Shown: one piece after another, positions 4,451 through 55,192 of the stretch
Layout of the letters: each line of letters opens with the position of its first letter
Position numbering within the stretch: position 1 is the first letter of the stretch
NCBI GenBank assembly: GCA_037043015.1
Contig: CM073327.1
Span: 4,570,727-4,634,726, forward strand
DNA length: 64,000 bases
DNA from: Bryum argenteum
Taxonomy: Eukaryota > Streptophyta > Bryopsida > Bryales > Bryaceae
Direction: 5' to 3'
Translations under genes and position numbers: made by a program
The notes under the pieces: model-generated
Seen by the model: the letters and a program-made list of their open reading frames with translations, nothing else
What the model was told of the DNA's origin: nothing
Databases searched by the model: none

Positions 4451-4457
4451 CTAGGGT

Positions 4458-20481: not shown

Positions 20482-20780
20482 ATCACAATCCAGTATCCGG
20501 ATTTACCTCGCTGTTGCCCGAACACGGCAGTCAATTCAGACTGCAGAACGTTGCATTGGTGGGAAGCTTTGTGGGGATTGATGCCCATCCCATTCAGCCC
20601 AAAGCTATCCCTGAAATCCTCAAACGATAACGCTGGAGGAGGTGCACCTCTGCGCAGGACAGAAATCTTGTCCTCGACATCGTCGATGGTAACAAGCTGG
20701 GGCTCTTCTTCGTTGTCAGCAATGGCCGCCGACTTCTTCTCCTTCTGCCCCCGCTGCACACCCTCGGACGTTACTTGGGC
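20466..20780 (-). CDS. 5' exon of the coiled-coil/RING-like gene, abutting element 1
   Basis: The frame enters from the heptamer array and reads AQVTSEGVQRGQKEKKSAA, then an acidic EEEPQLVTIDDVEDKI stretch and a conserved-looking FEDFRDSFGLNGMGIN. It ends GKSGYWI at a possible donor near 20482 or at the TAA at 20466. It has no ATG of its own before the element boundary, so the gene's true start was probably displaced or lost when the element arrived. Linking it to the exon at 18.9 kb rests on strand, composition and phase only. Confidence 0.5.
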   Translation of the reverse strand, partial: AQVTSEGVQRGQKEKKSAAIADNEEEPQLVTIDDVEDKISVLRRGAPPPALSFEDFRDSFGLNGMGINPHKASHQCNVLQSELTAVFGQQRGKSGYWIVMRKEL

Positions 20781-20782
20781 GT

Positions 20783-20838
20783 GAGCGTAGAGCGTAGAGC
20801 GTAGAGCGTAGAGCGTAGAGCGTAGAGCGTAGAGCGGA
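20783..20838 (+). repeat. Left terminal heptamer array of element 1
   Basis: Eight 7-bp units, GAGCGTA seven times then GAGCGGA, preceded by GT. Interior sequence continues with AATTTCAGATTGGAGAGCGG. It is the inverted partner of the right array. Tandem short units in place of a long unique terminal inverted repeat are unusual for MULEs. Confidence 0.85.
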
Positions 20839-21198
20839 GAATTTCAGATTGGAGAGCGGTGGTGAGAACAATTTTTTGGAAATTTTTTCTAAAAATATAA
20901 AAATTCTAAATTTATACAGAATATTCCAGGGAATACTCGAATATTCTTGACTTATTACCGTGGATTTGGAACCCGAACCCGTGGAAATGAGGGAAAAAAT
21001 TCTGAAATTTGGCTAACTTCAACAACATTCAAAAGACATGGAGACACTTATGGTGAGACATTACTTAAACAATTTTGTGGACATAGATACTAATATTTTT
21101 TTTTTATGCTATATTGCAAAATATAGTCACACAACGTGTTAACTACACAGTCTAGGGTTAAGGGCGAATAGGGAATATAGTGTGGAAAACTATGACAT
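20839..21198. other. Left subterminal noncoding region of element 1
   Basis: AT-rich 3' flank of the transposase gene, about 360 bp. No gene; probably carries the transposase terminator/polyadenylation region and subterminal binding sites. Confidence 0.5.
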
Positions 21199-24100
21199 CT
21201 AAACTATGGCGAGCTCAAGGATGCCTCTCTCCATGATCATCTTCACCTCGTTGAAACTTAGGGTAGGCGCATGGATGAAGAGGTCTACATCTGGTTCAAA
21301 CTTGCATACCAACACAAAGACATAGTATAGGTGCTTGCAAGGTCTATAAGGTTCTCCTCTCCGCCCTAGTTTTGCAATTGTGCTTTTAAACACCGGACAA
21401 GTGCAATCTGGCAATGCACCTATTGATAGTTGATAAATCGCTTGCGAATCTAACTCCATGGAAATAATGCATCCAATTCCTGGCGATGGGACCATAGTGA
21501 CCTTTAGTATCTTCGTCTGCATCGCACGGGCGGAATCAATATTCCGTGTGTGCTTAGAAGTTACGTTGCATATGCGCCGGAGGTTCCTTGACTTCCTTGA
21601 TTTTGAGAAGACATCTGCATTCTCCGGCACTGGAATATGTGACAGGTCCCGTGGCGCAGATGCAGTGTTGAAAGTACGGTTGAGTGGAAGTCTCTCCTTC
21701 TGAGGGAGTCGGAAACCAGCATTCTCTAACGCCTCCATCTCCGAACGTGTCAGATTTGTCCCTATCTTCACGGGCCAGATTGTTGGGATTGGGGGTTGAT
21801 CTTCAGTTCGAGAGAACGGCTCCACCCACTTCCGACGAGTGCCCTTCACACACCTCTCAATATCGTCGGGGCAGAAGTAAAACTTCTCCACCTTCTTGCG
21901 GTGACCATTTTTAGGAGGCATCCATATTCCGGTATAAGTTGGTGCAGGTGTGGACTTCCCGTTTTGCACTATACGAGACTCGCATTTCTTCTTGGTCACT
22001 GCATGCTGTGCCCAACAGGACTTGGCTGAGGGCTCCTTCAATCGAGCAATATGCCATAAGTTTTCGTTCACTTTTGTCTCTTGTACAGCTGTCACCCAAT
22101 TAATAGAGGCACCAGCGGATGTGGAAGATTCGATTGGGCGTTCTTCGTCTTCGCCGTCCTCGTGAATAGTTCTCAGACTCTCACCACATCCCCGGGTAAC
22201 TCTTCTGCCGATTCGGGGACGCGAGAAATTCACAGTGTCAGGCCTATGGGTTTCCTCTTCCGCTCCGATTGGAACATCATGCTTACGTTTTTTCGAACCA
22301 AAAATCTCGGCACCCTCCAAGTGAGCATCGCGAGTACAAAATATATCAGCCTCCGGGAACTCTATTACTGCCTTATTGAGAGCTGATGGATCGCCGGTTC
22401 TATGAGCCTTACGTTGTGCACTGCGAAGTCGGAGTTCCTCCCTAGACGGACCATGTCCACCCGCTCCACCTTTGGTGTATTGATAGTATCCCACAACTTG
22501 AAGGAAAGCACGAACGTAATCATCAACAGCTGCCATATAGAGATCACCACCCTTATTTCCCGAAGCTCGCAACCATTTGTTATGAATGGATTCTGCAAGG
22601 TTGCAGGATGGCATCTCAGCTAGCTCTTCTGCAGATAATTTTTGTTCCTGCCAGGTACAGAAGCATTGCTGTCAAGCTCAAAGTGTAGGAAGAAGCAATT
22701 TCGTTGACGAAACTGCCTACTAATAATAGATTTTTTTTTATTTTATTTTTTTGGAAGGATATAATAATTTACGTTTATCCCGACTTAATTGTAAAATCAA
22801 ATTACTATAACTTGAAATTACCGTAGTAAGCTTCTACTTACCAGTTCCATGAATCCACCCCACTGTCTATAGCGGTGATGCCAATACGAAAGCCATAGGC
22901 CTAGGTGGTAGAGGCCATTCTCGGAGGTGGCGTTTGAGGATGACCACCACGCTCTGATTGCCAAATACCGGGTCTCAGCTTCATCGGATGAACGAGCATC
23001 CTTGTATTGCTTACAGAGGACCCTATGTTGATCTTGCAATTCGTGGACGATGTACTTCTTGGTATGAGTTTCTAATGATTGCGTCCAATGAAAGTAACAA
23101 GTACGTTCTTGGTCTTCCATGGGAACTGAAGGATCTCCAGAGCCGTAAACGATCCGCACTGCGTTCCAGTTGGCTTGAGCACTGTCAGCCATAAATCCTT
23201 GAAACTTAGGTTTGGGTACTCCGTGCCTAGCCATGACATGGTTGAGATTCCTCCAGAAAACGAGTTGAGCTTGAGTATCTTCAGATTGAAAATCTGAACA
23301 TGCAATGGTTAGAATGCGCTGGTAATTGGGGTCGTACACATGGCACGCCATGGTAGTCCATGGCTTCACCCGTTTGACATGGTCAAACATCATCCAGGCA
23401 TTGGAGAGGTCGCCTCCAGGCTGCATCCGGCGGACAACGTCGACACCACTACCGGGTCCAACTTCTGACATCTTAAAAATGAAGACTTTGTCAGAATCGT
23501 CTCCTTGGCCCGGGAACATGTTGCGTTGCACATACGCCCAGTTGCTGAGTCTTCTAAGCTTTGTGATGCCATCAAGGATGCCAAATCTGCGCATGTACTT
23601 GAAAGAGTAGATACGATTCCGCAAGCTTGGAGAGTTCAGGAGTTTACATCGATCAAAGACTGGCTCAAGTTCTTCAAGAGTTAGGTGGCCGGATTTGGGG
23701 TCATCTTCGTCGCGTAGAAGAATGTTACCTACTACGTCCTTGCTAGTCTCCAAGACAATTTTCGAAATTGTTGCTTGGGGGTTGCGGTCAACATGCTGTT
23801 CGATTAACTCATCTATCATTTGACGTGCGCATCTATAGTCTCCGACTTTGACAGGGTGCTTGTGGGTACCGATATGCACACAAGCACGCTCTTGAATATC
23901 ATCTCCAAAGACGTAGAAGATTTTGGTAGGACACAAAGCAACGCAGACTGGAGGTTCTCTGCAAATCTTACAGACTAGGGTGGACGATGAGGGAGGCGGT
24001 TCACTTACTGAGAAAGGTTCTTTGGTGATACCTTCAAACTCCACCTCATTGACTCCCGTTGCACGACCCGGGCGTTCCAAATATGGGCACTTATCATTGT

Positions 24101-25142
24101 GGCATTGGAGATGACCTGCGCAATTAGAATACCGAAATGACAAGCCCATGGTGTTGCTGATATTTGTTGTCATCGTCCTAGTCCAGACATGTCCGTCATA
24201 CCGTTTGTCCATCCCTTCCATTGATTTTGCATTCTTGAGAACAACAGAAGGAAGTATCGGGGGGAGGACAAATAGGGCATTTCCGTTGAAAGATGGAGGC
24301 AGAAAGGATACTGTCTGAGTAGGGATGGAATTGAAATCTAGTTTCTTGAGAATATTCTTGCTACCGGGCATGCTACCAAGTTTGCGTAGACATGGGAGAA
24401 TGTTTTTGGGTTTTCCTGTTTGAGAAGATGGTGAGGGAGAGGCTAAGGAATAGGGCGTTGATAGAGAAGAGTTCTGAGAAATAGAGGAGATGGATGGAAG
24501 TTTGGCAGATGAACGACGGGGTGGAACGGATGGCTTTCGTTCGTCATCGGATGAATCTGATATATCGATACTGACACGCTTGCCTGGTTCAATCTTGACA
24601 CGAGCAAAGAGGGGACCGACGTTAGAGATTGTGGAGGAGCTACGAGGTGTTAGAAGTTGAGTGGAGGCGTTCATAACTGACTCTGTCAAACCATATAGGC
24701 GATACTTTCCTGACTTCAGCTTCCACATTGTAGCGCTATTATGTAAGACGACAGGTTCTACAACCGTGGAGTACAAGACATGAGAAGTATGTGGATCAAG
24801 AACGTCGGTCTCTAACCACAAACTGGAGACATCATAGCCAAAGCGGATTGCAAGCCATGAAGAGGTGACTTCAGCCACACCATCAGGGCCAGGAGGAAGA
24901 CAGAGAGGGACATCAGAGGCTACTGACTTAATCTCGATCAATTCCGGAGAAGGAGGCTCAGAGGTGGAAGCTATGACTTCAGCCACACTATCAGGGCGAG
25001 GAGGAAGACAGACAGGGACATCAGAGGCAATTGACTTAATCTCAAGCAAATCTGGACAAGGTTGCTCAGAGGAGGAAGCCATGACAGAACCGAATGCAAG
25101 GGAATGGATATAAGAGCGGTACGAAAGAGATAATGAGTTCAT
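21199..25142 (-). CDS. MULE-type DDE transposase with SWIM finger, two exons, intact
   Basis: Exon 1 is 25142-22842 (767 codons) and exon 2 is 22647-21199 (482 codons plus stop). Donor CTG|GTAAGT and acceptor CCTGGCAG|GAA join in phase 0, giving 1249 residues. The N-terminus has two copies of an ELIEIKSVASDVPLCLPP-like repeat. A GCM/WRKY-like zinc motif (CAGHLQCHNDKCPYL, about residue 340) and a second Cys/His cluster follow. The DDE core has MMFDHVKRVKPWTTMACH, FMADSAQANWNAV and CYFHW. The third acid is in NLAESIHNKW, just after the intron. The C-terminal SWIM finger is CTCPVF, then CKHLYYVF. All key residues are present. It would catalyse cut-and-paste transposition in the nucleus. The start could instead be the methionine about 20 residues in (MASSSEQP). 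Its intron carries one of the element's 16-bp dyads. Confidence 0.85.
22648..22841 (-). other. Transposase intron containing a dyad site
   Basis: A 194-bp GT-AG intron. At 22698-22713 it carries ATTTCGTTGACGAAAC followed by TGCC, a member of the element's dyad family with the same right-hand flank as the cargo-zone copies. An element-encoded factor bound here could influence transposase splicing or transcription (inference). Confidence 0.8.
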
Positions 25143-25731
25143 GTGGCGATGTTTATATACTGAAATAATGTTCTAATGTAATTAGTAAAAGTAAAGAAAT
25201 AGTTGCAAACTTATTTTGATGATGTTTATGAAACGGAGTGACCGTGGGGGTAAAGATGGAAGTACAATCTCCTAGATGTATACGTATTTAAAACGTATTA
25301 TGTAACCACATTCTTTAATATTGAACACTCGCATTAAGTAAGCAGAAATGTAAAGAGGGGGAAACTAAATAAGGAATTGAGACTTGAATTTGTGACGGCG
25401 GCCGCCTCTGTCAGATAATTTGAGTTCAAAAAAGGCGGCATGAAAATAGATTAGTATATATTGTCAGACACGGAATCAAAGTAAAAGATTTTGTACTGTT
25501 TCCGGATGCTAAAGTGGCTATGAGTGTTATTATGATACGCGTTTAGAGTAGTTAGGGTTTGAAGAACGGCGCAATCAAAGAGTATAAAGTTATAGGATGA
25601 GAAGAGATAATCCTCTATATTTCTTCAGATGTTAGTATCTTGAGGCTGGGTTGTATGATGTCGTTGTATTCTTGGAGTCACGCATTTTAGAATATCGTGT
25701 CTTAAGCGGTAGGAGTTCGTAATTGATCGCA
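25143..25731. promoter_or_regulatory. Divergent promoter region of element 1
   Basis: 589 bp between the outward-facing transposase and small acidic gene. It includes GACGGCGGCCGCC near 25395, comparable to the GACGGCCGCC core of the 96-bp repeats in the matching interval of element 2. No perfect repeats here. A shared bidirectional promoter is inferred from gene order alone. Confidence 0.5.
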
Positions 25732-26534
25732 ATGGAGGGTGACAGTAGTCAAGTAGAGAGAGGGAAGGATGGAGGACGCGGGAACAAGAAGAGAAGAGGT
25801 GGCATAAAGTTTTCTGGATCCAAAGCTTTGCGACGGAGTGCGATGCGGAAGAAAGATGTGCTGGATGGGTCTGATGACGATCATATGCAAGATATAGAGG
25901 AAACGATTGATGAGTTCCTCCCTGGGAGGTTTAGAAGGAATGTAAAGATTCGGACGTTGTACTTGGACGCTGTTACTGAGAATGCTGGGGGTGAAGACGA
26001 TGGAGAACGGCTTGATTGGAACGAAGGAGTGGAGGAGTTTGAGTCTAGTAAGCAATCGCAGAGCAAGAGTGGATCTCAAGAATTTGAACGTGATAGCGCG
26101 GATAAAGAGTTCGAAAAAGTAGTAAGTTTGAATGGGAGTCTGGGTTTGCACTATGCGTTAAACTTGATGTGATATACAGTCTTAAATGTTTTGATGGGTT
26201 TGTTCAGTGGGATGATATGGAGACATTCGTTGATGACATCTTTGGTGTTCATCCTCAGCAATTTGAAGCCGGAGCAGAAGGACCAACCCAAGATTGTCAA
26301 GTGGAAGATCTGAATGCTGTGGATGGCCATGAAGAAAAGGGCGAAGTGGAATTAGGACCGGAGCGTTTACCGGTACAAATCCCAAACCTTGGACACGAGG
26401 TAGATCCAGGATGTCGTCCTGAGTTTATGATTTACGAACACTCTAATGGATTCATTCAATGCTGGTTGATAGATAATAATGAGTTTCCTTGGGCCGACAG
26501 TGAGGACGTGGACGAAGCAGATGCTGATAGTTAA
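25732..26534 (+). CDS. Small acidic nuclear-type protein, two exons
   Basis: Exons 25732-26121 and 26208-26534 join in phase 0 (GTA|GTAAGT donor, GTTCAG|TGG acceptor), giving 238 residues. It begins MEGDSSQVERGKDGGRGNKK, has a basic patch (NKKRRGGIKFSGSKALRRSA) that suggests nuclear import, then an acidic second half (DDHMQDIEETIDEF, VHPQQFEAGAEG, ending PWADSEDVDEADADS). It is divergent from the transposase across a 0.6 kb promoter interval. Element 2 has a gene of similar type at the same place (56.14 kb), with a basic start and acidic second exon, though little direct sequence identity. An accessory or regulatory role is likely; family unknown. Confidence 0.65.
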
Positions 26535-28090
26535 CGTGCCACTAGGATGTAGACCCATTGAAGCCATTATTTCTACGTGTATTAGAACAGAAATAGGATA
26601 CTTTGTGAGAAAAGTCCAATTTTTGTGAGGTGGTCCCCCAAAAATAAAGACCATTGCCAGGCGCATTCTAAGTTGACATTTTTAGGAAACAAAATTCTAA
26701 GCGCATTTTTGGTGCTATTATATAATAAAAACAATTTAGAGGAATCTTATCTATTATGTAATGGACGTTACCGAAACCACTCATGACGCAGGGTATCATC
26801 TTTATTTTATATTTTACGCGGAATTTTATAGAGAAAGCAGCATCTTCAAGGATTTGGGGAAGGTAATGCTGGGAATGAACTAATATAGGTGTTCCTTATG
26901 TCTGTGAGATTTTATTCGGGATCAAAACATTATTGATGCCGTCATTGTTAAATTTACCCTGTACTCGATTAATTAATTCAAAAAGCTAACTAATCCTTTT
27001 CATTATATTAATTTTAAATCATGCATGTATTACTAAGAGCAATCAAGTAAGCTTCCATTGCGTGCTAACTCAGCGAGCAAGCTCTAGTCAGAACTGGATT
27101 CACTCTATAGGTACTAGTCGACCAATTTACAAATTCACGACCTAAGCGATCTTTTTGATTTTCGTGAACTAGTAGTTGCATGTTTCTAGAGGGTTGCCTA
27201 CATCGATATGGTTGATGGGTTGGCTCAAAGAAGCCTGATTTCAGCCCGCATAAGCGGAATCGATGGAGACAGGCAGTTGTGATAATCTGCCCTTTCGAAA
27301 TGACAGTCTGGATAACCAGCACAGAGGCCCTTTTTTGGCCGATTAAGCGGAGTCTTCGGAGACGGCACCAGTGACATTCGACCCTCCCGATCAGACAGTC
27401 TCATGCACATGGCTATCCGGGTTGCCAGCACGAAGGCGCGCCTGCCACCGCATAAGCGGAGTCATATTTAGCAGTCATCTTCAGATATTCTCTTGCGCGC
27501 CATCTGCTATAGAGCGGCTGTCATCCTCCTTTTCACTTTTGTCGATAATAGCTTCAGTTACGGGATGCCACCGTTTGTCTTTTTCGATAGTACCGAGGGT
27601 ACCATATTCACGCTGACGCCTGTTGAGATGCGAGAAAGGGTTTCGTGAATCCTCGGCTCGCTGTGCGGTCCACGATGGAAGGCATACAGTGACAAAAATA
27701 AAAAATGCCGATTACGTTTGATCTGATTCGATTTGGAGAGGGAGGTGTACAGATTGAAGCACTAAGAGGTATACGGTCTTTCGAACTTTGTTTCTTTCAT
27801 TCGCAGAGAGAATCAGTGATGGCGAGTTGCGGAGCGGAGGAAACTGCAATGCGCGAGTCTGGCAGTAGCGTTGCCCCTCCACGTTCTTGATCTCTGGGTG
27901 GAGAAGGTTGCATTGGAAAACGACAGGGAGGTTGGAGGTAACAGAAGAGGACATATTCGCATCGAAGGACTTTTGCATTCCTCAGGAGGTTTGTGTTTGA
28001 TCTCATCTCAAAGTGAATGTTTGTCTTCATTTTGAATCTATATTCAGAATTGTTGATTGGGATCCTCTTTTATGATTGTGCGGTCATCAA
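26535..28090 (+). other. Noncoding start of cargo zone with ~100-bp degenerate repeats
   Basis: No supported gene. 27.24-27.48 kb has three spaced copies of a unit containing TAAGCGGAGTC (27249, 27345 and 27452 approximately) with GGAGAC just after the first two and CCAGCAC further on. An ATG at 27819 opens a short frame (MASCGAEETAMRESGSSVAP) behind a possible acceptor, TTCGCAG, but I could not join it to other exons. Confidence 0.4.
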
Positions 28091-29944
28091 ATTTCGTCGA
28101 CGAAACTGCTTGATCAGCTGATATAGGAGCAATTCAGCAGCCACCAAGATTTTGAGAATCTGAGTGTTGAGTTCGAATGCACATTCCGGTCCTCAGAGAG
28201 GGGAACCGACCCTTACCAGCCACTAGCTGAAGCTTGAGTTTCGACGGGGATGTGCGGTGCCGAAAATCCTCGAGCTTGATCAGTTTATCTAGGACCCCGA
28301 ATTCAGCAGTCACCAAGATTATGCGATTCCGCTCTGAACCCGCCAGTGCATGATAAGGTCGGCCGTTTTTGTCAACGAAACCGCTTGTCGTTAGATCTGA
28401 TCGATTCGTTGACATCCTGAAACCGTAAAACTAGATTTTGAGTGGTGAGTTCGAATGCACTGCCCGCTCCTCAGAGAGGGGAACCGACCCTTACCAGCCA
28501 CTAGGTGAAGCTTGATTTTCGATGGGGATGCGCGTTTGGTTTTTTCAGTATGCGGTGTCTAAAATCCTCGAGCTTGATCAGTTTATCTACAACCCCGAAT
28601 TCAGCAGTCACCAAGATTACGCGATTCCACTCTGAACCCGCCAGTGCATGAGAAGGTCGGCCGTTTTCGTCAACGAAACCGCTTGTCATTAGAAACTGAT
28701 CGATTCGTTGACATCAAAAAACCGTAAAACTAGATCTTGAGTGGTGAGTTCGAATGCACAGTCCGCTCCTCAGAGAGGGGAACCGACCCTTATCAACCCC
28801 TTGCTGAAGCTTGATTTTTCGATGGGGATGCGCGTTTGGTGTTTTCAGTATTCGCTGCCGAAAATTCTTGAGCTCTTCGAGCTTGATCAGTTTATATAGG
28901 ACCCCGAATTCAGCAGTCAACAAGATTAAGAGATTCCGCTAATAACCCGCCAGTGCATGATAAGGTCTGCCGTTTTCGTCAACGAAACTGCCTTGTGGTT
29001 CGAAACAGATTGATTTGTTGACATCCTCTAACCGTAATACTAGATTCCGAGGGGTGAGTTTGAATGCACAACCCGGTCCACAGAGAGGGGATCGGACCCT
29101 TACCAGCTCCTCTCGCTGAAACTTGCGCTCTCAGGGCAGATCGTGGTATCGATTCCGGTATCATGGCGAAGGCGTTAGGTACCTGGGAGAGTGTCCGTGT
29201 TTGGTGTTGGGGATGCTTTTTTCGTTGGGGATGCTTGTTTTTACTTGTGGTTTTATCAGTATTCCGCTCGCTCAGAACCCGCCAGTGCATGAGAAGGTAG
29301 GCCTGTTTCGTCAACGAAACTGCGTTGTGGTTAGTAACTGTTCGATTTGTTGACATCCTAGAACTGTAATACTAGATTCCGAGTAGTGAGTTTAGATGCA
29401 CAACCCGGTCCCAGAGAGAGGGGATCGGACCCTTACCAGTCCCTCGTTGAAGGTTGCGCTATCACGGCAGATCGTGGTATCGATTCCGGTATCATGCCGT
29501 AGGCGTTTAGAGTCCGCAAGAGTGTCCGCCTTGTGGCTCCGAATATGATCGGTGCATGCAAGAGGAGATTGTCGGCCGGTTTCGTCAACGAAACTGCCTT
29601 CTGGCTCCGAATATGATCGGTTTTGTTGAATGCGGCTCTCTGATTCGAGGTATTGAGTGGCTAGTTCGAATGCATAGACCGGTCCACAGAGCAAGGATTG
29701 GACCCTTACCTGCCTCGTTAAAACTCGCGCTCTGAGTGAGATGGTGACATGGAATCATGGCTTAAGCGTTTGGGGAAACACGAGGTGAATCTCGCTTGAT
29801 TTCGTCAACGAAACTGCTGTGTGGCTAGTATCTTATCGTTTGTGGTAGTATCCGGCTCCCGGGATCCTAGTTACTGATAGGCGGGGTCGAATGCATAGCC
29901 CGGTGTCGGGTAGAGAGAATTAGCCCTAGGAAAACTCTGGGTTT

Positions 29945-31830
29945 CTGGCTGCACCTAAGTCAGATGAGAAGTAGGAGAAGCAGGAGAAATTATCAAACTA
30001 TATAAGAAAGTCATTGTAAATAATACAAACAGTATTAAAGGTATGTTAAAAGATTAGTATTAATGTGTTAAGTAAACCTTAATTGAGATTAGATTAGCTT
30101 AATTAATCATAAGTGATTAGACAAAATATTAGTTGACTAAATAGGATTAATTAAAACTTCTAACCTTGATTAGTCTCTAACTGTGATTAGATTGATAAAA
30201 CAGAGTTAATGGTAATTAATTATGATTAGTGTTAACAAACATGATTAAGGTAATTATTTCTAATTACCCTTAACCCTTTAAGGTCCTTACCCTTAGATAC
30301 CCTACCCCTTTTATACCCTCTTCTATAAGACCCTTATCCTAGATATACCCTTGGTATACCCTTTGTTAGTTTAAGTAAACTCTAACCGTGGTTTTCCTCT
30401 TACTTTGGTTAATCACTACACCTTCATACGAAATTAGAATCAAGCAAGCAATATGTTGATAGAAAGCTACTAAAACATACTACAAGCATACTAAATCTCA
30501 AGTCTTGAAGGTTATCACACAAAACTCTATGGACAGTAGAAGTTAGGCGATCAAATTTTCAAGGCAGCAGACCTTTCTTCACTAAAAAGAGTGCCAACTA
30601 CACTCAAAAGCTCCAAAGTTAGTGCGTGATAGCTCTATAGAAAGCTGACAAGTTATATTACAAACCCTTTGAATCTCAATCTCAGAAAGATCACACAAAA
30701 GTTATGAGGTCAAATCAAAAACGGTCATCTCAAAACCGCTCCCATGTTAAGAGAGGAAGAAACCCTCTCTACTTCAAACCCGCACCACGGCCTCATACTA
30801 TCTTCAAATCACACACTTGATAGCTTTTTACAAACACAACCTCAAGATGCACAAAACCTTCCAAATATCACACTTAGAAACGGTTTTTACAAAACGTAGT
30901 GACTCCTCGAAGTCACGGTAATCAAAAATACATGGCAGCAGACCTCTTTGCACTAAAAAGAGTGTTGCTCCTTCCTCACAAAAAGTATGAACTCCCTTGA
31001 TACCATTTCGGAAAGCTCTCTTAACACTCTACAACACTCTCAAAACTTAGCAACTCACTCCAAAAACTCAAAACACACTACTCCTCCAAAGCCAGCAGCT
31101 CCCAAGGAGAAAGGAGAGAGAGAAAGGGGGGGCCACCAAGGCCCATACCATGCCCATGTGGCATCTCTCATGCCATTGGGCATGGATGGTCACCTCCATG
31201 CTGCCCCTTATCTCTTATTATCTCCTTAACTAATGAAATACAAAATACTCTATTCTACCTATTCGGTACCAACCAAATGGTTGGATTTCCACCGAATTAT
31301 TCTATATATTAACATTATGTAAGAAACTCAACATCAACTCCAATCATAAATAAACTAAATGAGTTCCCACTAGGATAATTTCACCCCACCACGTCCTCAG
31401 GCTCGTAGTTCCGACTCCCGATGGTTGAATAAATCCGCCGCTGCTCGATATACAGTCGCCAAGTCGCGGACTTGGTTGGTTGGCTTGAAAGTCGATGATG
31501 CGTTCTGTCGGTCCGGGTTCGAACCCCGCTAGACCCGTTGAGCGACACAACCAGCTCGTGACTTAGCTCTGCTGGCGAGAGTAAACGGCAGGAAATAATG
31601 CCACCAACCGGCGCCCCTACCTCCAGACTGTGACAAGATGCAGTGCCTCCAAGATACAGGCCTGTCACGAAAAATTTATTATCCATCCCTCTAGGCCTAT
31701 ACTGTGGTTCTCACCACAAAACATACTTTTAATCTAATAATACACTCATATATTTACCACGTACCAGGTACATGGAAAACTATGAGGTTATCAACTTATA
31801 TTTAGTTTTTTACAACATATAACTGATATC
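29945..31830. other. AT-rich insertion splitting the dyad array
   Basis: About 1.9 kb without dyads, separating the 28.1-29.8 kb and 31.9-33.6 kb blocks. It contains a repeated phrase (GGCAGCAGACCT with CACTAAAAAGAGTG, at 30565 and 30933) and at its right end a tRNA-like internal promoter segment. It looks like one or two later insertions; exact ends not determined. Confidence 0.45.
31360..31700 (+). repeat. Possible tRNA-derived SINE remnant
   Basis: Contains GGTCCGGGTTCGAACCCCGC near 31520, an exact match to the pol III B-box (GGTTCGANNCC) in T-arm context. A weak A-box-like TTGGTTGGCTTG lies about 50 bp upstream. The body after it does not fold as a tRNA. A minus-strand open frame across it has no recognisable content. 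SINE is the best guess; no poly-A tail or target duplication identified. Confidence 0.35.
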
Positions 31831-34017
31831 ATCACGACACCGGTCCACAGAGCGGGGATCGGACCCTCAGTAGCCTCGCTGAAGCCTAGGGTCCGACCGC
31901 TTGCACCTCCTGCGTGTTGATGGCCACTGCTTGTATGCTCAGCCCAGTACTTGGGTCGGTTTTGTCAACGAAACTCAGTTCTATGAGCTCCGATATCGAC
32001 ATTCATTAGGATGGTGCTTGCTTGAAATCTCGGGAGTGTTTGCGTTTGGGATATTGTTTGTTAAGTATGGATATTATGCGTTCGGGATACTCGTTTTTAC
32101 TTGTGCTGTTATGAACATTCGTCGACGAAACTCATCGAGCTTTTCCAGCTTGAACAGCTAATGTGCGACCCCAAATTCTGTAGCCATCTAGATATTGATA
32201 ATCCGCTGAGAACCACACAGTGCACGAGGAGAAGATTGGCCAGTTTCGTCAACGAAACTGCCTTGTGAATAGTGTCTTATCGTATTTTGTTAGTTACTGA
32301 GTGGCAAGTATATACATAGCCCGGTCCACAGGGCAGAGACCGGAATCTAACAGCCTTGCTGAAGCCTCGGTGTCGAACGCTTGCGCCATCGCGTGAAGAT
32401 GGCCACTGCTCAACCCAGTATGCTCAGCCCATACTTGATCGTTCAACAGATCACTCCGTCGGTTTCGTCAACAAAACTGAGTTCTATGAGCTCCGAAATT
32501 CTCAGGAGTGTTCTCATGTTTGCATTTGGTCTCTTTTTTGTTTAGTATCGAAATTATGCGTTCGGGAACTCGTTTTTGCTTGTGGTGTGAGAGACATTCG
32601 TCGACGAAACAGCTTGACCTCATCCAGATTGAAAGCTACTGTAGGACCTCGAATTCATTTGTTATTGATAACCCGCTCAGAACCCGGTCGTGCACGAGGA
32701 GAAGCCCCGCCGGTTTCGTCAACGAAACTGCCTTCTGGCTCAGTCTTAATCTGGTCGGTTTTGTTGAATGCCGGCTCCCGGGATTCCAGCTTCTCAGTGT
32801 TGCACTGCTTAGCCCGGTCCACAGAGCGGGGATCGAACCCTTACTAGCCCCTCGCTAAAGCTTGCGCTCTCAGGGCAGATCGTGGAGTCGATTCCGGTAC
32901 CATGGCGTAGGGGCTGGTATCTTGTTCGTCGCCGAAAAACCTTGAGCTCTTCGAGCTTGACCAGCTGATCTGCGACCCAGGATTCCGCAACCACCAAGAT
33001 TCACAGATTCCGCTCAGTACCCACAAGTGCATGAGGAGAATGCGCCCGGTTTCGTCAACGAAACTGCCTTGTGGCTCCGAATATGATCTGATCTGCTGAA
33101 TGCCGGCTGTCGGGATCCGACCCTTACGAGCCCCTCGCTGAAGCCTGCGCTCTCAGCCGAATCTGATGGTTCTTCTAGTAACCATGTAACCATGTACCCC
33201 TTCTATATGAAGCCTTCACCGCTCGCCTTCGCGTTCGCCTTCACCTGCTTCGCATACGCCTTGAACTGCGGTGTGTTCACCTGCATCAGTGCAACGGCCA
33301 GCGCCGCGATCTGGTCGTCAATTCCGGTATCACCACTTAAGCGTTTCGTATCTTATTGAGTGTCCGCGTTTGGTTTTTTTGTATTTGAGTTTGGAAATTT
33401 TTGTTGGAGATCTCGTTTTTACTTGTGCTGTTATCAATATTCGTCGACGAAACAGATCGAGCTCTTCCAAATTGAAAGCTGATGTAGGTCCCCGAGTTCA
33501 AGAGCCTTCAAGATTTTGAAAATCCGCTCTGAACCCGCCAGTGCAGGAGTATAAGCCCGGCCAGTTTCGTCAACGAAACTGCCTAGTGGCTCCGAAAGTG
33601 ATCGGTTTTTGTTAAATGGATTTGTTGAATGCCGGTTCCCGGGATCCCTACTTCTGGTGGCGAGTTCGAATGCATAGTCCGGTCCACAACCGCGCTGAAG
33701 CTGAAGCTCGCGCTCTCAGAGCAGATGGTGGAATCGGTTCTGGGATCATGGCGTTGACGTTCATCACGCTGGTTTCTATGAGCTCCGAACTGATATTCAA
33801 TTCGATGCTGCCTTCTTGAAAGTGCTGATGGACAGTCCGCATGTCGTACGTTCTTATTTAGTGTCATATTGATAACAAGGATGTTGTATAGAAGAATCTG
33901 GGTTGTTTTATTTCTATACCTTCCGTCCTTTCAATATTATCACCAAATTATCTTCTCGGATCTCATTGATAATTTTGTACTGACTCTCTAATTTTTCTTT
34001 GTGTTTGCTGATGTAGG

Positions 34018-34313
34018 AATCGATTGACTTCGAGCCAGAGGACTCCTACCTGGAGTCTGAGAGTGATGGCGAATTGTCTAGTATGCAACCTAGAGTCTTA
34101 GACGTAGAGTGTAATTGCACATTGGGTCGTGCACTTCCAGCTGTTACTTCAGATTCTAACACGGACTTTGCTCAATCAACATTGACGGCTCCAGTGACCG
34201 TTTTTGAAGATCACCGTGCTACTGACATGAAGTGTTGGAGGGCTCGTAATAAGCAATTGCGCTTAGAATCTCAAGCTCGAGCTAGACGTTGTCACGACGA
34301 TCTAAGAGGATAG
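34018..34313 (+). CDS. Exon of unknown gene upstream of ParB fusion gene
   Basis: After a good acceptor (TTTGCTGATGTAG at 34005-34017) an open frame reads ESIDFEPEDSYLESESDGEL and continues to ARARRCHDDLRG with a TAG at 34311-34313. It is acidic at first and basic with RNKQLRLESQARARR at the end. It may be the last exon of a short cargo-zone transcript, or a first-exon alternative to the next gene. The upstream exon was not found. Confidence 0.4.
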
Positions 34314-34488
34314 CGGCAAAGTCTAGTTAGAATAATACATTCTACTATCCTGACAATATTCTCACATTATGCATAATCAGTCCACATGATACAGTTCATG
34401 TGGATTTCATTTATCATTTTTTGTACAACTCTATTTCTATATGATTATTCCTTATTGATTACTAAATTCCATCGGTACTCTTGCGCAG

Positions 34489-37400
34489 ACCCCACTGCTG
34501 AATGCCTCGATGTTATCTGAGAGCGATCGTACCGACATGGACACCACCGAAGGACGTGATGGGGGACAGCAGTCAGGACCACCACCGACTTCTGCACCAA
34601 GCCGCCAACTCACCTCCCAATCTCCCATTGTCGAAGACGAAGATGACGACATTCAAGAGATAATTCCGGGAACACAGCCTTCGCGCGACAGTGATGAAGT
34701 TGACGAAGGGAACACACTTACAGTAGCTGCGTCTCCAACTGTCCGATCTGTGAGGGAAACTCCTTCTCTCCTAGATACAGTGGAGGTTGGGGTTGTTGAA
34801 ATGCCAAGTCATTTAGCTGAGATGGATCCTATGTGGAGCGCCGACGAGTTGCGCGCTCAACAGAAGGGAAACTCTATCAACACTATATCTAGGTTGCGAA
34901 TCAAACCTGTCGAGAAATCTCGACTTCGTATTCCCCTTTGTCGCCTCTCTTGTTACCCCAAGGTCCGTCCCATAATAGAAACAGATGTTTGCAAGTTGGC
35001 TAACGAGTTTGTCAAAGGTTACAGAGAAGGCGATCGTGTTCTTTATGTTTCTCCCTTCAGCAAGAACGGTAAGCAGCGGCTGGTGAAGGACGATGATGCG
35101 GTTTGGAATAATCCTCATTGGAAATCGGCCAATGATCGGTTTGAATCCTTATTGCAAGCCGATCCGGACCTTTGCCAATTCAGTGGCAAATACTTCTATG
35201 TCTATGAGGGGAATCATCGCGTCACTGTTTGGATGCGGTACATCGAGCAAATGCGCAGAGATGATCCGGATTGGTATTTCTTTGTCGACTGCATTGTCCT
35301 TGATGAACGTGCGGAATACAAAGTACTAATCGACGCTATGAATGACATCAACTGGTGAGTTCAATTTCGTATCTTATTCATTAACTGTACTCTTTTGTAC
35401 ACAAACTCTATTTCTTTAGTAACTGACTTTCTGAACAGGTCCACAGAGCATGATCATGTAGAAGATAGTCTGCCATCGAGGTTGCAACGCATGCGCAAGT
35501 TTGGCAAGATGCCACTTGAAGAATGGAAACCCCTGATCTCTGCTGAGGACTGGAAGTATTGTTACACTGCAAAAGATAAGCTGAGACCAACTTGGTACTT
35601 TGTGACCAAGGACATCTTCATCAAGTTCCTTTACGCGGTGTGTCTTTAATCATATCTTCAATTCGAATTCTTTTCAACTAGCCTTTTTACATTCTTTAAC
35701 ATGCGTTCTTTGATCGTCCAGAGGCAATGTGCTAAGGTTTCCGACGAAGCCCAAGCCCAGTACTATGAGGACACTCCCGTAAACGAGAGGACAGCGCAAG
35801 GAGTTTGGACGGCCATGGACGATGCTCTTAAGGCTGAGATCAAACGGATCCGACAAAAGGATTTCGACAAAATGCTTGCCATTGCAAATCCAGAGTTAGG
35901 AAAAGCATTTGAGCAAGAGGTATGAATTCAATCGACCAAACTTAGTGTCTTCTCTCGATCTCTTGTTAACCCCTCTATTTAAATTCTTAAGCTCTTTGTT
36001 GTGAATCGATGCAGATCAATCTCCATTATAGCCGTCAGAAGGATCCCGAGATGTCTCTGGAGCGCCTCCAGAAGGTTGCCACCACCAACGTTTCGAAGGA
36101 AGTGAAAACAATGTGGCTTCGTTGGTGGAACAACACTCCGACATTCCGACGTAGTGTTCGCTTTCCGGACCCGGTCGAGATGAAAGACAGGGTGTTGGAG
36201 GCATGGCTTGCTCGTGCAGCATTGTGGTCGCAGGTACTTCATATCCACTCAATCAAAAGCCTTACAACATTTTGCTCATACCATTTTATGATGTACTTTA
36301 CTAACTTATATCGTTGACCGCAGTTAGCGACGTATCTGAAGGAGGAGGTGAACAAGTTCTTCAAACAAGAGATTCCCCAAATCCCGAACCTTGACGCAAT
36401 TATGATGCCCGATGGGTACGTCGAAAAATGGCGACTTCTTTTATGGGATAAGGCTTTTCATGCTTATGTAGGACCCAAAGCAAGCCCTAAGTTCCTTAAA
36501 GGCTCCCACATCGACAAGATTGGCGGGGGTGCTCAAACTAAGAAGCGATTGATGTTCAGGTTTGAGCATGCCGTTCCGTATTGTCTATCTCTTATCCTCA
36601 AATTCTACGAAATGATTCTAATTGCTTATACTCTTTGTAGGTATATCAAACAAGAGCTCGTTGCTAAGGGAGGTCTCACTACATTGGGCATTCCATCGGA
36701 GTTTCAAGTCCCTTACTTGAAAAAGAAACCAATGTCGATTTTTTCCAATGATCAGAGGCAGCGGTTCAAGATGGCTTTACTGTTGACTGGTGGTTGGTTC
36801 CTAGAGTCTCAAACTCACCATGTTCATAAGGAAGAGATGCATCTTGTGCAGATATCGGAATCGGGCGACGCCGCTTCTGTGCAACTACAGGATGATGATG
36901 ATGACGACGACTTCTACATGCTTCCGGGTGCTCCACCACCACCCCCCCCAGCTGCACTGAAAGGTAGAGGAAATGCAGGTGGCAGCCGCAAACGTCGCAA
37001 GAAAGAGCCTACCCCTGAGCCAGAGGAGGAGGAACAAGAGGAGGAAGAGGAGGAGCACGAAGAGAATGACGAAGACGACGACGGAGAGCATGGAGATGTT
37101 CCCATTCCCGATGAGCTTGCAGGTGGTGCAGATTCAAATGTATGTAAGTTCCCTTTTTCTACTGTACGTTGTTATTCATGTAACATATACACTATGTATT
37201 CATTGCAGTTCAAAGAGAAGTTGATATGACACAAGCTTCCCAAGGGACGGTTGTCAACAACGGTGGGCAAGGTCTAAGAGGTCCAACTGCCTCGGAGAGG
37301 CAGCCAGTTCTGCCACAAAGGCAGACTCGAGGGTGGACCCAAGCATCTCAGGGTGGGGTTTCGAATGTGGGATCTACTCCTCCGACGTCGTCAGCCCCTC

Positions 37401-38998
37401 GTGAATCCCCTCTGTCACATGGACCGACCCAATCTCATGGACCCATGCGTCCCATTGTCATTCCCAAAAATGTGGGTAGTACTTCATCTTCTCCTACGAA
37501 TGTGACGCTCCCTATGTTCCTAGAGAAAGGAGACACGGCCGCCTTGGTTCAGCAGTCTACAAAGGGTGCAGGCTGGGTAGACGCTATTCAGGCTATGGTA
37601 CAACACATCAAGAAGGTGATTTCCTCTCTAACAAATCATTGCTTTCTTAGAGTAGTTACTCTATAGTGCTCATTGGTTTCTAATTACTTTGTGTGTAATC
37701 CACAGATTGGAAAGGGTAGGGACTACCCTTGCGAGAAGATGGAATACAAGCCCAATCACCCCCGGATTGACCTTATCTTTGCAGACGTCCCGGAGAACTT
37801 GCCTGTGCTTGGTGTCTCGCCGGAAGCAGTTCCCGACTGGAACAAACGACCGTCGTATTACTTCGAGTCTGTGTTTGTCTTCGCCTCATACCATTTGACT
37901 GACCTTGGTACTGTCCTTATTATGCACCCCAATGATGTCAAAATTGACCGCATCCTACACGATCGTGCTAGTACTTACAATTTCCGGCTTGTGCGAGAGT
38001 GGTGGGCCTATAACCCCCTTCCTTTGGTTAGACCTGGCGCTGCCGCAAAAGAGGTAAACTTTCCCCAGTTGCACTTGATTTAATCTTTGTCTAATTTCAG
38101 CATTCCGTTTACTTAATTTGAATTGCTTATTGCAGACCCATAACTTTACCATCAAGGTCTATGCTCGTAAGGACTTCGTGAAGTTGTTCAATATACGGCA
38201 GGTGGCGCAAGCATACGCAGGAGTCGCGATCATACCTGACGAGGATGACATGGTCAGTAACTTTGCTGATGCGAGTTCCATTACCTACCGCACTAACGGG
38301 AAGCCGTGGCGTGGCGCACGTGAGAAGGATCCGTCGTTTTTGCAGTGCTTCGTGGATTGCCTCACAGACGATGGAGGAATCGTATTTGACTTCAGCGCTA
38401 GTACAGGTAAATATTTAAGTTTTCATTTATAACAAGTTTGAAAATTGATATTTTCAATACTCATGTGGATTTCCAAATGTGCAGGTGCTTCTATCATCGC
38501 ATGTGCACGCTCCAATCGACACCTTGTTGCTTTCGAAGCAGATGAGGAGATTTTTGATGGGCTCTTGGCCACCTTCAAACACCCTAAACCGATGGAAGAA
38601 GAAAGTGGAGAATCAGCATCTGGCGACGATTACGACTCCGATGAACCGTATCTGAAGAAGCCTCGCACTTATATTGGTGTGTACTCAATTGAATTCAATG
38701 ACTTTTTGTGATTTCGGAGTCTGTACTACTTTCAGCTGCCATTGACTGGTTACAATTATTTAGATATGCAGGCATCTCAAGACAATTGACCCGGAACGCT
38801 CATCTCATCAATAGCCCACCCCCCACACTTGTTCTACCCTCTTATGCGGAGCATGTTGCTCGGGCTTTCGTCGCTGCTCCAACTCCTTCTGTACCGAATT
38901 CTTCACGCCGACGCTTTAGAGCTGGTGTACTTAGGTACATTGACTTAGAGGCAGATCAGTGTGACCATCATTTTAATGGTGCCTCACCTTCATCGTAG
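34489..38998 (+). CDS. ParB-like domain fused to beta-class DNA methyltransferase-like domain, 11 exons
   Basis: Exons end/start at 34510(ATG)-35354, 35439-35637, 35722-35919, 36015-36233, 36324-36559, 36641-37143, 37209-37615, 37706-38053, 38136-38406, 38485-38676 and 38772-38998. All phases agree and the total is 1214 codons plus stop. The N-terminus is acidic and disordered. Residues about 135-280 form a ParB/sulfiredoxin-type domain (SRLRIPLCRLSCYPKVRP; then FYVYEGNHRVTVWMRYI with the GNHR box). The middle is helical, with poly-Asp, poly-Pro and a RKRRKK signal. The C-terminus has IDLIFADVPENLP where methyltransferases have DPPY, and later GGIVFDFSASTGASII where they have the FxGxG SAM site, then LVAFEADEEIFDGLL. 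This motif order is the beta class (CcrM-like). Both catalytic motifs are altered, so it may bind but not methylate DNA. An upstream exon is possible (acceptor at 34488). Confidence 0.8.
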
Positions 38999-39960
38999 TG
39001 TGTTTTTTTTTTTTTTCCTATTTCAGAGATGACTATCTAGGGCCAACTCCAATGAGTTGCCTTACCCTACAAGTCATTACTTTCATATATTTTACATAAT
39101 TTAACATATATGTGTGTTTGTCTTTAACAGTATTGAACAGTTTCAATGTCCAATTCTGTACTCAATCTATTTGTTGGATTCACTTGTCACACCCCACTAT
39201 TTCAAATGACATTTAAAATTCTAAAATGTATACAAGGTCTTATACATCAGTGCTACCCTATATTTGTCAATGTCTATAGGAGCTTCTACTTTTTCCCTAT
39301 TAGCTCAGGATAGCTGCCTCGCGTATAACGCGATGCTCAAACGAGCCCGATGGGGATCGAACCCGGACCTCCGCTATGCCATCGTTATGTCTAAACCGTC
39401 CACTACATTAGATTAAACGATGAGACGGTTTCTGTTACTGAAATTTGAATTATATTATTTTGTTGACATTTATATTTTTTACTTTATCAGTATTATGTCA
39501 CAACATGCGCAGTATTCCTTGCCGAGATCATGTGAGAGGCAACTATCCAAGGATGTAATATAGATCTCTGGGGTTCTTTGCTTTCGTTGATTTTTCTTTG
39601 TATTTTAATGATGACGTCAGCCCTAATTTATCCCTAAACCATAAACCTAAACCGACTTTCGCAATTACCTAATACATATGTTCAATTTAACCTTTGAATA
39701 GTCATGCCTCCGATTCACACGTTCATCAATATGATGACATCAGCCTACTTTCAACATATTAACATAAAATTTTCAAGACATTATTAATGAAATATCCTTG
39801 CGAGGTGGGACCCACATTAAAAGAAGACCCAACACCACGGAAATAGGGACCCGAAACCCTAAAAATAGACATTTAAAAATAGTACAGTACAAAATTGAGT
39901 GGTAATAGGGTACTTTACTTTTTAAAAAAACTCTTATAAAATAGTCAAAATTGTCCCGTC
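38999..39960. other. Right subterminal region of element 1
   Basis: About 960 bp of noncoding, mostly AT-rich sequence after the fusion gene. On the minus strand 39342-39420 has a T-arm-like GGGTTCGATCCCC and, upstream, TAGTGGACGG, consistent with a tRNA-derived pol III promoter remnant but not a foldable tRNA. Nothing else recognised. Confidence 0.5.
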
Positions 39961-40009
39961 ACCGCTCTACGCTCACCGCTCACCGCTCTACGCTCTACGC
40001 TCTACGCTC
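39961..40009 (-). repeat. Right terminal heptamer array of element 1
   Basis: Seven 7-bp units, ACCGCTC or TACGCTC, which on the minus strand read GAGCGGT or GAGCGTA. They are inverted relative to the array at 20783-20838. The GAGCGGT subtype is the one seen at the left end of element 2. Confidence 0.85.
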
Positions 40010-40011
40010 AC

Positions 40012-42340
40012 GCCTCTACGTTCCCCACGTGTGGGCCGCGGAAACGGGCATTCATCGTTACCGAGAGGACATGCACCACTGGCGCCTCGACATTGGCCGT
40101 TGCCGACAGTTCGTGGACAGCATGGTGCTCAGAAGCGACGCCAACGCATTTCCAGTAGGCACCGTAGATGGGGTTGAACTGCAGTTATCCCCTTATTACT
40201 TGTTTCAGCACTACAGGTGGGATGGTACCGGACTCACGAGGTGGACAGAAGACTGTGGATACGAGAAGTCGGATTTGCGCGCAAGGTTTCCCAATGTGCA
40301 CTGCGACCCGAACAAAGGGTACAACGTGCGGCAGATCGGTGCTTTGCTGCCGGAGCCATGGTGCGTACGCCTTCGGGGCATCCTCAGTCAAATTTTTCTT
40401 CGTGTAAACTGCAATATCATTATACCATTGCAGCTAGAATTGCTCCTCATAACGGAAGCCGGGGCCAAGGTCAATTGGGGTCTCTTCATGGAGCGAAACT
40501 TGAGGTTAGAGCTGAAGAATTACCAACAAAGGGTTAACTATGTGAGCCCAATTGGTCCTTTCTTGTCCACATTCATCAGCCGAACGTTGGCCATTCACAA
40601 TGACCAACGCCCAATGCCGCCGTTGATGAGCTTCGCTGATATTCAACAGCATCAGCGAACCAACTCCGCAGTGTTGCCATTGACTAACCACGGAGTACCT
40701 AGCTCCAGTAAGCGACCTCGAGTTCAATTCAAGACGCCGCAACGCAGGCAACGCAGCAAACCTCACCTCGGGAGCAGCTGCAAGCACACGCGGACGCCTT
40801 CACGACATGTTTGCAAACTCTGTTGGCCCACTTTGACAGCGTTGAGACACAGAAGGAAGCGCTAGACACCAGAGTTAGAGAACTCAAAGTAGAGAATGTC
40901 CGGAAGCTGCGAGCTTTACAAGCGGATGTGAAGAAGAAAGACGATAGGATCCTACAGCTCTAGCGTGACCTCGAGAAGGTCGCCGTCAATCGTCAACAGT
41001 TGTCAACAAGGGTTGGCATTTTGCAGATAGATCTGCAAGCAGTCAACGATCGAGTCGAGGCAGTGGTCCAAGAGCACAACATCGCCATTGAGCGCGCCAA
41101 GGCCATGGAGAGCAGTCAAATAGCTCTTCGGGAGAGTTATGAGCAGTTGGCAAGCCAACGTACCACGGTGCCAATAGCAGATGCTAATCAAAGGGAGCTG
41201 CAGAACGACATGGACAACTTTGAAGCAAACAAGTTGCTATGGGTAAACAACGTTGCCACGACCATAGCCACGGTCATGTACAATGCGATGTGCAAACTCC
41301 CCGCCACCCAACAGTTGCCCAAGGATTTTGTTTCTCAATGCGTGCAGGATTCATTAAGGGAGTTAGGGCTCGACGAGCCAGATTACGATGGCTCCTATGA
41401 CAACGCCAACAGCATCGAGATGATGGATACGGTGACAACAGGGGACATCGTTGAAGGTGAAATCAGCACTTACCTGCCTCTACATGGGGATGCCAAAGCA
41501 CCCCCCACCGAAGTCACTGCACCCTCCACAGACACCGACCTGGGGAGGTTCTAGGTTGTACTTGCGGAGGATCGGGCTGAGCAGGTCCAAATTCCGGACC
41601 ATTTCACCGACACAGAAGAAACCCCCCAGCCGTCACCGAGACCCCCCGCTTCGGAGGAGACTGCACCCAGCCGAGGGGCATCCCCCCAGCCGACGGCTCT
41701 TTCTCCACGACTTCAATCGGTAAACCCAACACCCCGATCCTTTACGGAGCATGAACAGGAATTACTCCAGTTGTTAGACGATGGATCGTGGGATGTAGAG
41801 ACAGGGAATTCCAGTCAGGATCAGGAGGAGTATCATCAGGCAGCCGAGGAGGTCTGCCAGTACTTCGTGGACCACCCGGACTTAGCGCAAAGATTTGCCA
41901 AACCCGAAGCCGATAACGTCAACTGCCCGGGCTGCAATAAAATGTTAGGAAAGACAGTCTATGATGTCTACGCCCATGCTGCCAATGTCCGCGACAAACT
42001 TTTGCTGCATAGAAGAATCGCTGCCGCCATCAAAGACATGTATGGTGGTTACAAACCTCCTCGTCGTGGACAGCAACTTCCCCGGGAAATCACCCGACCT
42101 AATCGACGCCCCGCTGAACGCACCTCCCGCCGATGACAAATTGTGCTCTCAAAGAGACGGCAAAATGTTACCAAGCCTACGCTGTCAACAAAGGGCATGC
42201 CAGTTTTGGAGGAAGTCATCGAAAGGCGACGTCAGACGCAGTCACAGAAGTCAAATAGGCAGCGGCGTCAGCCCAGCAGCGATCAAGTCGGGTGGATAGA
42301 GCCACTGTCAGGCAACAGCAAATCTCGGCAGCAGTAGAGT
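40012..42340 (+). other. Unassigned ORF chain right of element 1
   Basis: Plus-strand open segments at 40021-40865, 41000-41554 and 41771-42136 have real protein composition. Recognisable pieces are RCRQFVDSMVLRSDANAFPV, a helical/coiled region (LQAVNDRVEAVVQEHNIAIE) and NCPGCNKMLGKTVYDVYAH, a Cys-x2-Cys followed by His. The first segment reads straight out of the heptamer array, so its true start is missing. Function unknown. It could be a disrupted host gene or the structural region of an old retroelement; either way it is decayed. Confidence 0.4.
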
Positions 42341-50880: not shown

Positions 50881-50915
50881 GAGCGGTGAGCGGTGAGCGG
50901 AGAGCGATGAGCTGT
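50881..50915 (+). repeat. Left terminal heptamer array of element 2
   Basis: Five 7-bp units: GAGCGGT, GAGCGGT, GAGCGGA, GAGCGAT, GAGCTGT, decaying inward. Directly to the left is satellite sequence (ACTAGGGAATGGG) followed by ACGAGGCTATTTTGC, which is neither clearly satellite nor heptamer. Confidence 0.8.
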
Positions 50916-54500: not shown

Positions 54501-55192
54501 TAGTCACCTAATGGAGGAAGTTCAAAGATAACATCTCCATTGTAACAAGGGGGGAGGTAATCAACTTGCTGGAGTTTGATTACATCGAAGTTAATTCGAG
54601 ACAAGACATTCTTGGATCGTTTACGAGCTCCAAGACGCATCAATAAATCAATGATACTTTGAACGGGACTTGTTCCAACCTGGGACTGACCAAGAGTACG
54701 AGAAAGACTATTAAGAGGAGCTAATTCCTTACAATGTACGTCTGGACGTAGGGTACCTTGTACTTCACTTTCTCATCGAATAACTTCAACCTCACTATCA
54801 GAGTCATTACTCAACTCATAAATTGTTTCTAGACCGGGCTCAATTTTGACTCTAGTAGACAGTACTGGTCTCTCCATGCTAATAGTGGACGACTCCCTAG
54901 GTGTTAGAAGTTCAGTGGAACCATCTAACACAGACTCTGAGACTCCATAAACACAATATTTTCCGGGCTTCAACAACCAGAACGTACCGACATCATTTTC
55001 TCCTCTGGTCTGACCAACTGCGTGTGAAAGTAGACCAGTTTCATCGTCAAAAACTTCTTCTTCAACAAAGACAGTGTCCTCACGAAACTGAAACCTCAAA
55101 CTTAAGGTTGCACAAGTGACTTTAGCATGACCGTCTTCGCTTAATGGAAAGAGGACCGGAACAGAATGATGATCAGCACGAAGAAAGGCCAT
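51547..55192 (-). pseudogene. MULE-type transposase of element 2, broken
   Basis: Exon 1 runs from the ATG at 55192 to the donor at about 53097 and exon 2 from about 53000 to 51547. Splice junction and phase match element 1 (GGFMEL joined to NLSEDELAEMPSCNLAESIH). Exon 1 keeps the zinc motif (CLGHLRCDNRDCEYL) and the DDE core (IMFDHVKRVRSWTTMACH, FMADSAHANWNAV, CLFHW). It is interrupted by a single in-frame TGA at 54775-54773, and the frame is otherwise open. Exon 2 has frame changes near 52.72, 52.2-52.35 and 51.85-51.88 kb. The SWIM finger (SCTCPNF, then CKHLYYLF) is still readable at 51.6-51.8 kb. About four breaks in all, so no full protein is expected. Confidence 0.85.

Follow-up and report, generated by a model that had tools for sequence, protein, structure and literature searches.

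The DNA analyzed here, referred to as the window, is a whole stretch of 64,000 nucleotides (nt) from Bryum argenteum (GenBank assembly GCA_037043015.1, contig CM073327.1, positions 4,570,727 to 4,634,726 of the forward strand). It holds a transposon-like element of 19.2 kb, designated element A, and a diverged relative, copy B, which runs from position 50881 to the end of the window. Arrays of heptamers in element A enclose two divergently transcribed genes, one for a transposase (− strand) and one for a second, accessory protein (+ strand). The genes of the window look eukaryotic, given their short GT-AG introns. The ends and genes of element A are as follows.

20778 to 20844, + strand: left terminal array of 8 heptamer units, GAGCGTA type, forming the left arm of the terminal inverted repeat (TIR)
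21199 to 25142, − strand: transposase gene, 1,249 amino acids (aa), with exons at 25142 to 22842 and 22647 to 21199
34510 to 38998, + strand: second gene, 11 exons, 1,214 aa, with a ParB-like stretch, a middle region, a linker, and a methyltransferase (MTase)-like domain
39948 to 40014, − strand: right terminal array of 7 heptamer units, forming the right arm of the inverted repeat

Allowing up to 2 mismatches, GAGCGTNGAGCGT matched 16 times in the 64 kb, against 2.35 matches expected and a maximum of 6 in 100 shuffles. All 16 were confined to three places, at 20783 to 20837 (+), 39962 to 40009 (−), and 50881 to 50907 (+), and the only runs of at least three clean heptamers in the window lay at 20783 to 20838 (8 units), 39961 to 40009 (−; 7 units), and 50881 to 50908 (4 units). 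The outer arrays constitute a 67-nt inverted repeat that is 87% complementary, with arms 19,103 nt apart, giving element A the terminal inverted repeats expected of a Mutator-like element (MULE). Inverted heptamer arrays at both ends had been described in an earlier, sequence-only reading of this stretch, and these data bear that description out.

The transposase gene reads as two exons joined by a single GT-AG intron (22648 to 22841), with no internal stop. MULE transposases are DDE enzymes with a CxxH motif between the second D and the E, and a SWIM-type zinc finger is common, not universal, among them. In the element A protein, D587, D653, CxxH at 682, and E786 follow this arrangement at the motif level, and a C-terminal CxC...CxH finger of the SWIM type (CTCPVFKSTIAKLGRRGEPYRPCKH, residues 1182 to 1206) was recognized by pattern; a Pfam search of the spliced protein returned no SWIM match. 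Because a profile-level match is missing, the protein is labeled MULE-like on its motifs and is not filed as a MULE member. Of the intact MULE-type transposase claimed by the sequence-only reading, the intactness and the DDE, CxxH, and SWIM-type motifs stood, while neither a match to PF10551 nor a target-site duplication (TSD) was found. Scans with the transposase exon gave 10 pattern matches in viral contigs and 47 in GTDB genomes, none of them confirmed; such scans reach close relatives only, and the collections scanned include no eukaryote genomes as such. A 108-bp tandem duplication in the first exon (24866 to 25085) doubles about 36 aa near the N terminus.

The second gene was modeled by hand from sequence alone, without transcript evidence. 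Its ten introns of 65 to 95 nt are all GT-AG and leave one open frame (exon 6 through a GTAAGT donor), in agreement with the 11-exon gene previously placed between the arrays. The protein begins with a ParB-like stretch (exon 1), followed by the middle region, an acidic and basic linker, and an N4/N6 MTase-like domain (exons 8 to 10). A 244-aa stretch near the C terminus is related to N4/N6 DNA MTases, with PHROG matches at 4.8e−05 and 7.7e−05. Alignment of the domain with three phage MTases using hhalign gave an E value of 2.9e−06 and a probability of 88%, although these relatives were taken from the query's own tblastn matches (E values, 0.005 to 0.03) and are not independent. A match to PF01555 (17 bits; E value, 0.006) fell under the cut-off of 26.7, and two NCBIfam MTase models matched at E values of 0.05 to 0.1, far under their cut-offs. 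The profile matches fall within the cofactor-binding half. An N4C/N6A DNA MTase domain is present as homology only, with an altered catalytic motif. The ParB label rests on a single motif, GNHR where ParB has GERR, and no ParB family was among the Pfam, PHROG, and NCBIfam matches of the second protein. With the ParB-like exon of A as the query, tblastn returned 7 phage records at E values of 5 to 7, and a scan of viral contigs, which reaches close relatives only, gave 4 pattern matches, 0 confirmed; for the corresponding exon of copy B, tblastn found no plasmid hit with an E value of 10 or less. Weak profile matches to other families included DUF5622 (E value, 0.17) and, for copy B, HTH_metalloreg (E value, 0.018; far under the cut-off). 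PDB sequence searches returned nothing convincing, and the VANC domains DUF1985 and DUF287 were absent among the Pfam matches. The earlier label of a ParB-methyltransferase gene is upheld for its MTase half; the ParB half has one motif in its favor and failed a profile test, described below.

Copy B repeats the order and orientation of element A, from heptamer array to transposase gene (−) to second gene (+).

50881 to 50912, + strand: heptamer array at the left end of copy B, 4 units, GAGCGGT type
51562 to 55162, − strand: transposase of copy B, diverged
60503 to 64000, + strand: second gene of copy B, cut by the window end within the MTase-like domain (last match at 63779 to 63961)

Identity between A and B was 57% over 535 codons of the transposase core, 41% in the ParB-like exon, and 24 to 46% in the remaining second-gene exons that were aligned. 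Read with the exon layout of A, the copy B transposase contains stops and frame changes, and copy B is therefore probably no longer autonomous. Differences at the first, second, and third codon positions were 0.42, 0.29, and 0.65 for the transposase (1,084 codons) and 0.50, 0.39, and 0.67 for the second gene (512 codons). This count used 14 hand-picked blocks after removal of 24 double-counted or intronic codons; the blocks were drawn from stop-free matches, which places the stops of B outside it, and exons 5, 7, 9, 10, and 11 of the second gene had no B block. The third-position excess in both genes indicates, at the level of codon comparison, that both have evolved under protein-level constraint (purifying selection). 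The transposase and second gene are paired in both copies in this one window, two of two, which is the basis for the obligate partner gene proposed in the sequence-only reading, and the proposal that one element holds the two is strengthened by the diverged syntenic copies, the selection in both genes, and a shared heptamer family at the start. Copy B had also been taken to confirm the boundaries of the element; order, orientation, and the left end were confirmed, and only the left boundary gains support because the window ends inside the second gene of B and the right end lies beyond it. A 96-bp repeat in three copies (55553 to 55849) was seen just upstream of the copy B transposase gene.

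Palindrome-like sites form a cluster between the two genes of each copy.

22699 to 22712: one site (TTTCGTTGACGAAA on the + strand), inside the transposase intron at 22648 to 22841
28092 to 33578: 17 sites TTTCGTYRACGAAA with 0 to 2 mismatches, between the two genes of A, mostly within ∼300-bp repeats
57932 to 60082: 6 sites GTCTCGGTACCGAGAC with 0 to 3 mismatches, in the intergenic interval of copy B

The A-type pattern had 18 matches, none outside element A, where 1.01 were expected and at most 4 occurred in 100 shuffles. These sites are mostly an inverted repeat, TTTCGT/ACGAAA, around a 2-bp CA center; 9 of the 17 read TTTCGTCAACGAAA, and 1 of the 17 is a perfect 14-bp palindrome. The B-type pattern had 6 matches, none outside copy B (0.07 expected), and four of them are perfect 16-bp palindromes. 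Within the mismatch limits used, the A type is absent from B and the B type from A. When relaxed to 4 mismatches of 16, the A pattern reached three of the six B sites, plus 5 other places. A likeness of the two site types (GTYTCG..CGARAC) was considered and judged weak, as it extends to only 5 of 8 half-site bases and the relaxed A pattern also matches elsewhere. A motif-independent enumeration of palindromic 10-mers that contain three or more G/C and occur three or more times found three in the window, namely, the cores of both site types (4 occurrences each) and one in a 26-bp satellite, against a mean of 0.03 and a maximum of 1 in 100 Markov simulations.

With the intron site and a 2-mismatch site set aside, identity among the remaining 16 of 18 A sites was 0.92 in the core and 0.40 to 0.43 in the near flanks, and among all six B sites it was 0.88 in the core and 0.44 and 0.32 in the near flanks; the sites compared were chosen by motif, which biases the core upward. 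Because of this bias, an alignment of nine A units anchored outside the site was made, covering 9 of the 17 interval sites. The site was present in all nine and was the most conserved 14-bp window, at 0.97 against a mean of 0.66, with conservation around the anchor itself reaching at most 0.80. No copy of the A site turned up when viral contigs were scanned with exact 20-mers. A possible resemblance of the sites to bacterial parS was set aside. A distinct site cluster in each copy, between its genes, looks new here.

A ParB-plus-MTase partner gene in a giant transposon is of an already known kind, such accessory genes having been described in giant transposons of algae that belong to unrelated superfamilies. 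Sola1-1_Ec32 of Ectocarpus is a 21.5-kb Sola1 transposon with an accessory gene of this kind opposite the transposase gene (PMC12477816). The same source cites green and red algal cases, naming Iyer et al. 2011 and Petroll et al. 2025, and only suggests how the proteins act, by binding and epigenetically modifying their own transposon. Element A is likewise giant (19.2 kb, against 21.5 kb), and its accessory gene also lies within a DNA transposon on the strand opposite the transposase, encoding a protein of 1,214 aa (against 1,104 aa) with an N4C/N6A-type MTase domain and a putative ParB-like part. The two differ in their transposases, Sola-1 there and MULE-like here, and the ParB part here is without profile confirmation; the accessible text of PMC12477816 makes no mention of palindrome clusters or heptamer ends for Sola1-1_Ec32. 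The accessory gene of element A most likely belongs to this class, and the ParB label is likely by analogy, because of the published Ectocarpus case.

Among VANDAL elements, the short motifs that VANC binds often lie in noncoding tandem repeats, within introns, or upstream of the gene for the transposase; the sets of motifs vary among relatives, and VANC is the less conserved of the two proteins (PMC5735166). Here too the element is MULE-like, its second protein has diverged more than its transposase, and the candidate sites appear to follow the same layout, lying in repeats and one intron and differing between relatives. VANC carries DUF1985/DUF287, whereas the second protein has an MTase-like domain and its putative targets are palindrome-like; binding and hypomethylation by VANC are experimental, and the counterpart proposed here is inferred from sequence. 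Fungal DNA transposons with TET/JBP genes belong to other transposase superfamilies. They also carry a DNA-modification gene, in their case for a dioxygenase instead of a methyltransferase (PMC12730594). With the MULE superfamily, element A shares a DDE transposase, a SWIM-type finger (by motif), a TIR within the reported 14 to 500 bp, and an antisense second open reading frame (ORF), as in MutB and PMD (PMC6446971), and it departs from it in its 19-kb size, TIRs of tandem heptamers, a TSD that was not found, and the lack of a match to the Pfam MULE model. The sequence-only reading held that MULEs are usually a few kilobases, which fits Pack-MULEs of up to 7 kb (PMC6431247). Its view that they carry no conserved second gene is not supported, given the listed MutB and PMD ORFs, and its claim of an undescribed element type does not stand, since both the Ectocarpus case and the MULE antisense ORFs are published. 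A limited search of open-license PMC literature revealed, among the matches listed, no such gene in a MULE-like element and no paired site clusters.

We regard element A as a giant MULE-like, presumably cut-and-paste element with an accessory gene of the ParB-plus-MTase class that would act on the element's own chromatin or expression via private sites, an interpretation for which the balance is about even. Its ends, the two genes, their synteny and selection pattern, and the site clusters with their conservation were observed directly, and mobility is suggested by this anatomy. The transposase would bind the inverted heptamer arrays at the element ends, which is probable. The accessory protein would bind the private palindrome-like cluster between the genes, together with the one site in the transposase intron, and once bound could act on the chromatin or expression of its own element. 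This action might be methylation of the element or, given the changed catalytic motif, marking or desilencing as VANC does for VANDAL elements. It is because the layout is shared with VANDAL/VANC that we propose that the second protein reads the sites and acts on the expression or chromatin of the element itself; both the binding and any epigenetic action are what we infer. A more specific form of the idea, self-recognition in a MULE-like lineage by a ParB/MTase-derived protein, possibly a nonmethylase, that binds private sites and co-diverges with them, is put forward tentatively and falls somewhat short of even.

Several results weigh against this interpretation. Only one copy, A, is whole in the window, and no TSD was found at its ends, either as an exact 7- to 8-bp repeat or as a 9- to 12-bp repeat with up to 1 mismatch. 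These limits, under which the 8- to 11-bp duplication of MULEs was not seen, are lenient rather than strict, as at least one match was obtained for 21.5% of 200 random end pairs. (A TSD-like ACGTT near both ends, noticed by eye with 6 of 9 bases matching, lies outside the limits and was given no weight.) The transposase matched no Pfam family, including PF10551, when the two stop-to-stop ORFs of A and the main ORF of B were searched at E ≤1 and the spliced A protein at E ≤10, where the tool's filters drop most matches above ∼0.1. The GNHR stretch aligned by hhalign to eight ParB sequences at a probability of 0.1%, no better than cross controls (0.2% and 0.8%), and AlphaFold models from two-sequence alignments were too poor to use (mean pLDDT, 41.7 for the ParB-like part and 32.9 for the transposase). 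CpG observed/expected ratios of 0.89 in A and 0.77 in B, against 0.64 to 0.95 in five flanking stretches, do not clearly point to a change in methylation. In place of the catalytic motif DPPY, A has DVPE and B has DLPE, and the capacity for methylation may have been lost. Finally, no link ties the sites to the accessory protein rather than to the transposase or a host factor.

That last point bears on a competing explanation, possible but less likely than not, in which the transposase, or a host factor of replication or chromatin, binds the sites while the second protein has its role elsewhere or is carried along as a passenger. One site does sit in a transposase intron, the second protein is not directly tied to the sites, and its ParB assignment is weak. 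However, retention of a third-position excess across 512 codons is not what one expects of a passenger gene, and it is the heptamers, not the palindrome-like sites, that are common to both copies, as expected of transposase sites. Methylation of the element by the accessory protein, working as an active N6A or N4C MTase in the way suggested for its Ectocarpus counterpart, is rather unlikely. Two points speak for it: the cofactor-binding half is homologous to N4/N6 DNA MTases, and proteins of this kind have been suggested to bind their own transposon and modify it epigenetically (PMC12477816). Against it stand the changed motifs: besides the altered DPPY, motif I of A has STG in place of GSG, and all three aligned phage relatives keep DPPY and GSG. 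Both are standard motifs of such MTases, and these substitutions make MTase activity of the second protein appear doubtful.

The sites could also be functionless by-products of a tandem satellite, which we consider improbable. Most A sites do sit in ∼300-bp repeats, and the independent anchor could test just 9 of the 17 interval sites, but in those units the site is far above the rest (0.97 versus 0.66). The B sites, though motif-picked, lie in largely unrelated flanks (0.88 in the core against 0.44 and 0.32), and the clusters of A and B occupy the same interval between the genes. Least probable is a chance adjacency of separate neighbors, a transposon and a gene of the host or of another element; the missing TSD would suit it, but pair, order, and orientation are the same in two diverged copies, and both genes of A are enclosed by the terminal arrays.

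If an accessory protein does recognize its own element through such sites, a counterpart of VANC antisilencing would have evolved a second time and independently, and the whole ParB-MTase accessory class would gain a mechanism. It would also show by what means very large transposons mark themselves or mount a defense, convergently with VANC in land plants, and matching site clusters could reveal how such elements recognize their own DNA. The presence of two adjacent relatives, each with a separate cluster, yields the prediction that each protein binds its own sites and not those of the other.

Other features of the window lie outside element A. To its left are pieces of a hAT-type transposase at 11385 to 13939 (−), with a DUF659 match at 1.3e−36 and a hAT dimerization match just under the cut-off, and a RING-finger-like ORF at 17621 to 18154 (−; PF13639, 24.7 bits, under the cut-off of 27.3). 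A diverged 26-bp tandem satellite occupies two blocks, 42993 to 44686 and 47852 to 50864, and the left array of copy B starts ∼17 bp after the second. The ORF at 44589 to 45230 (+) resembles by eye the C-terminal part of a retrotransposon integrase and had no Pfam match at E ≤0.01. About six copies of TAGGGTT, which we take to be the plant-type telomere unit, lie at 4452 to 4492.

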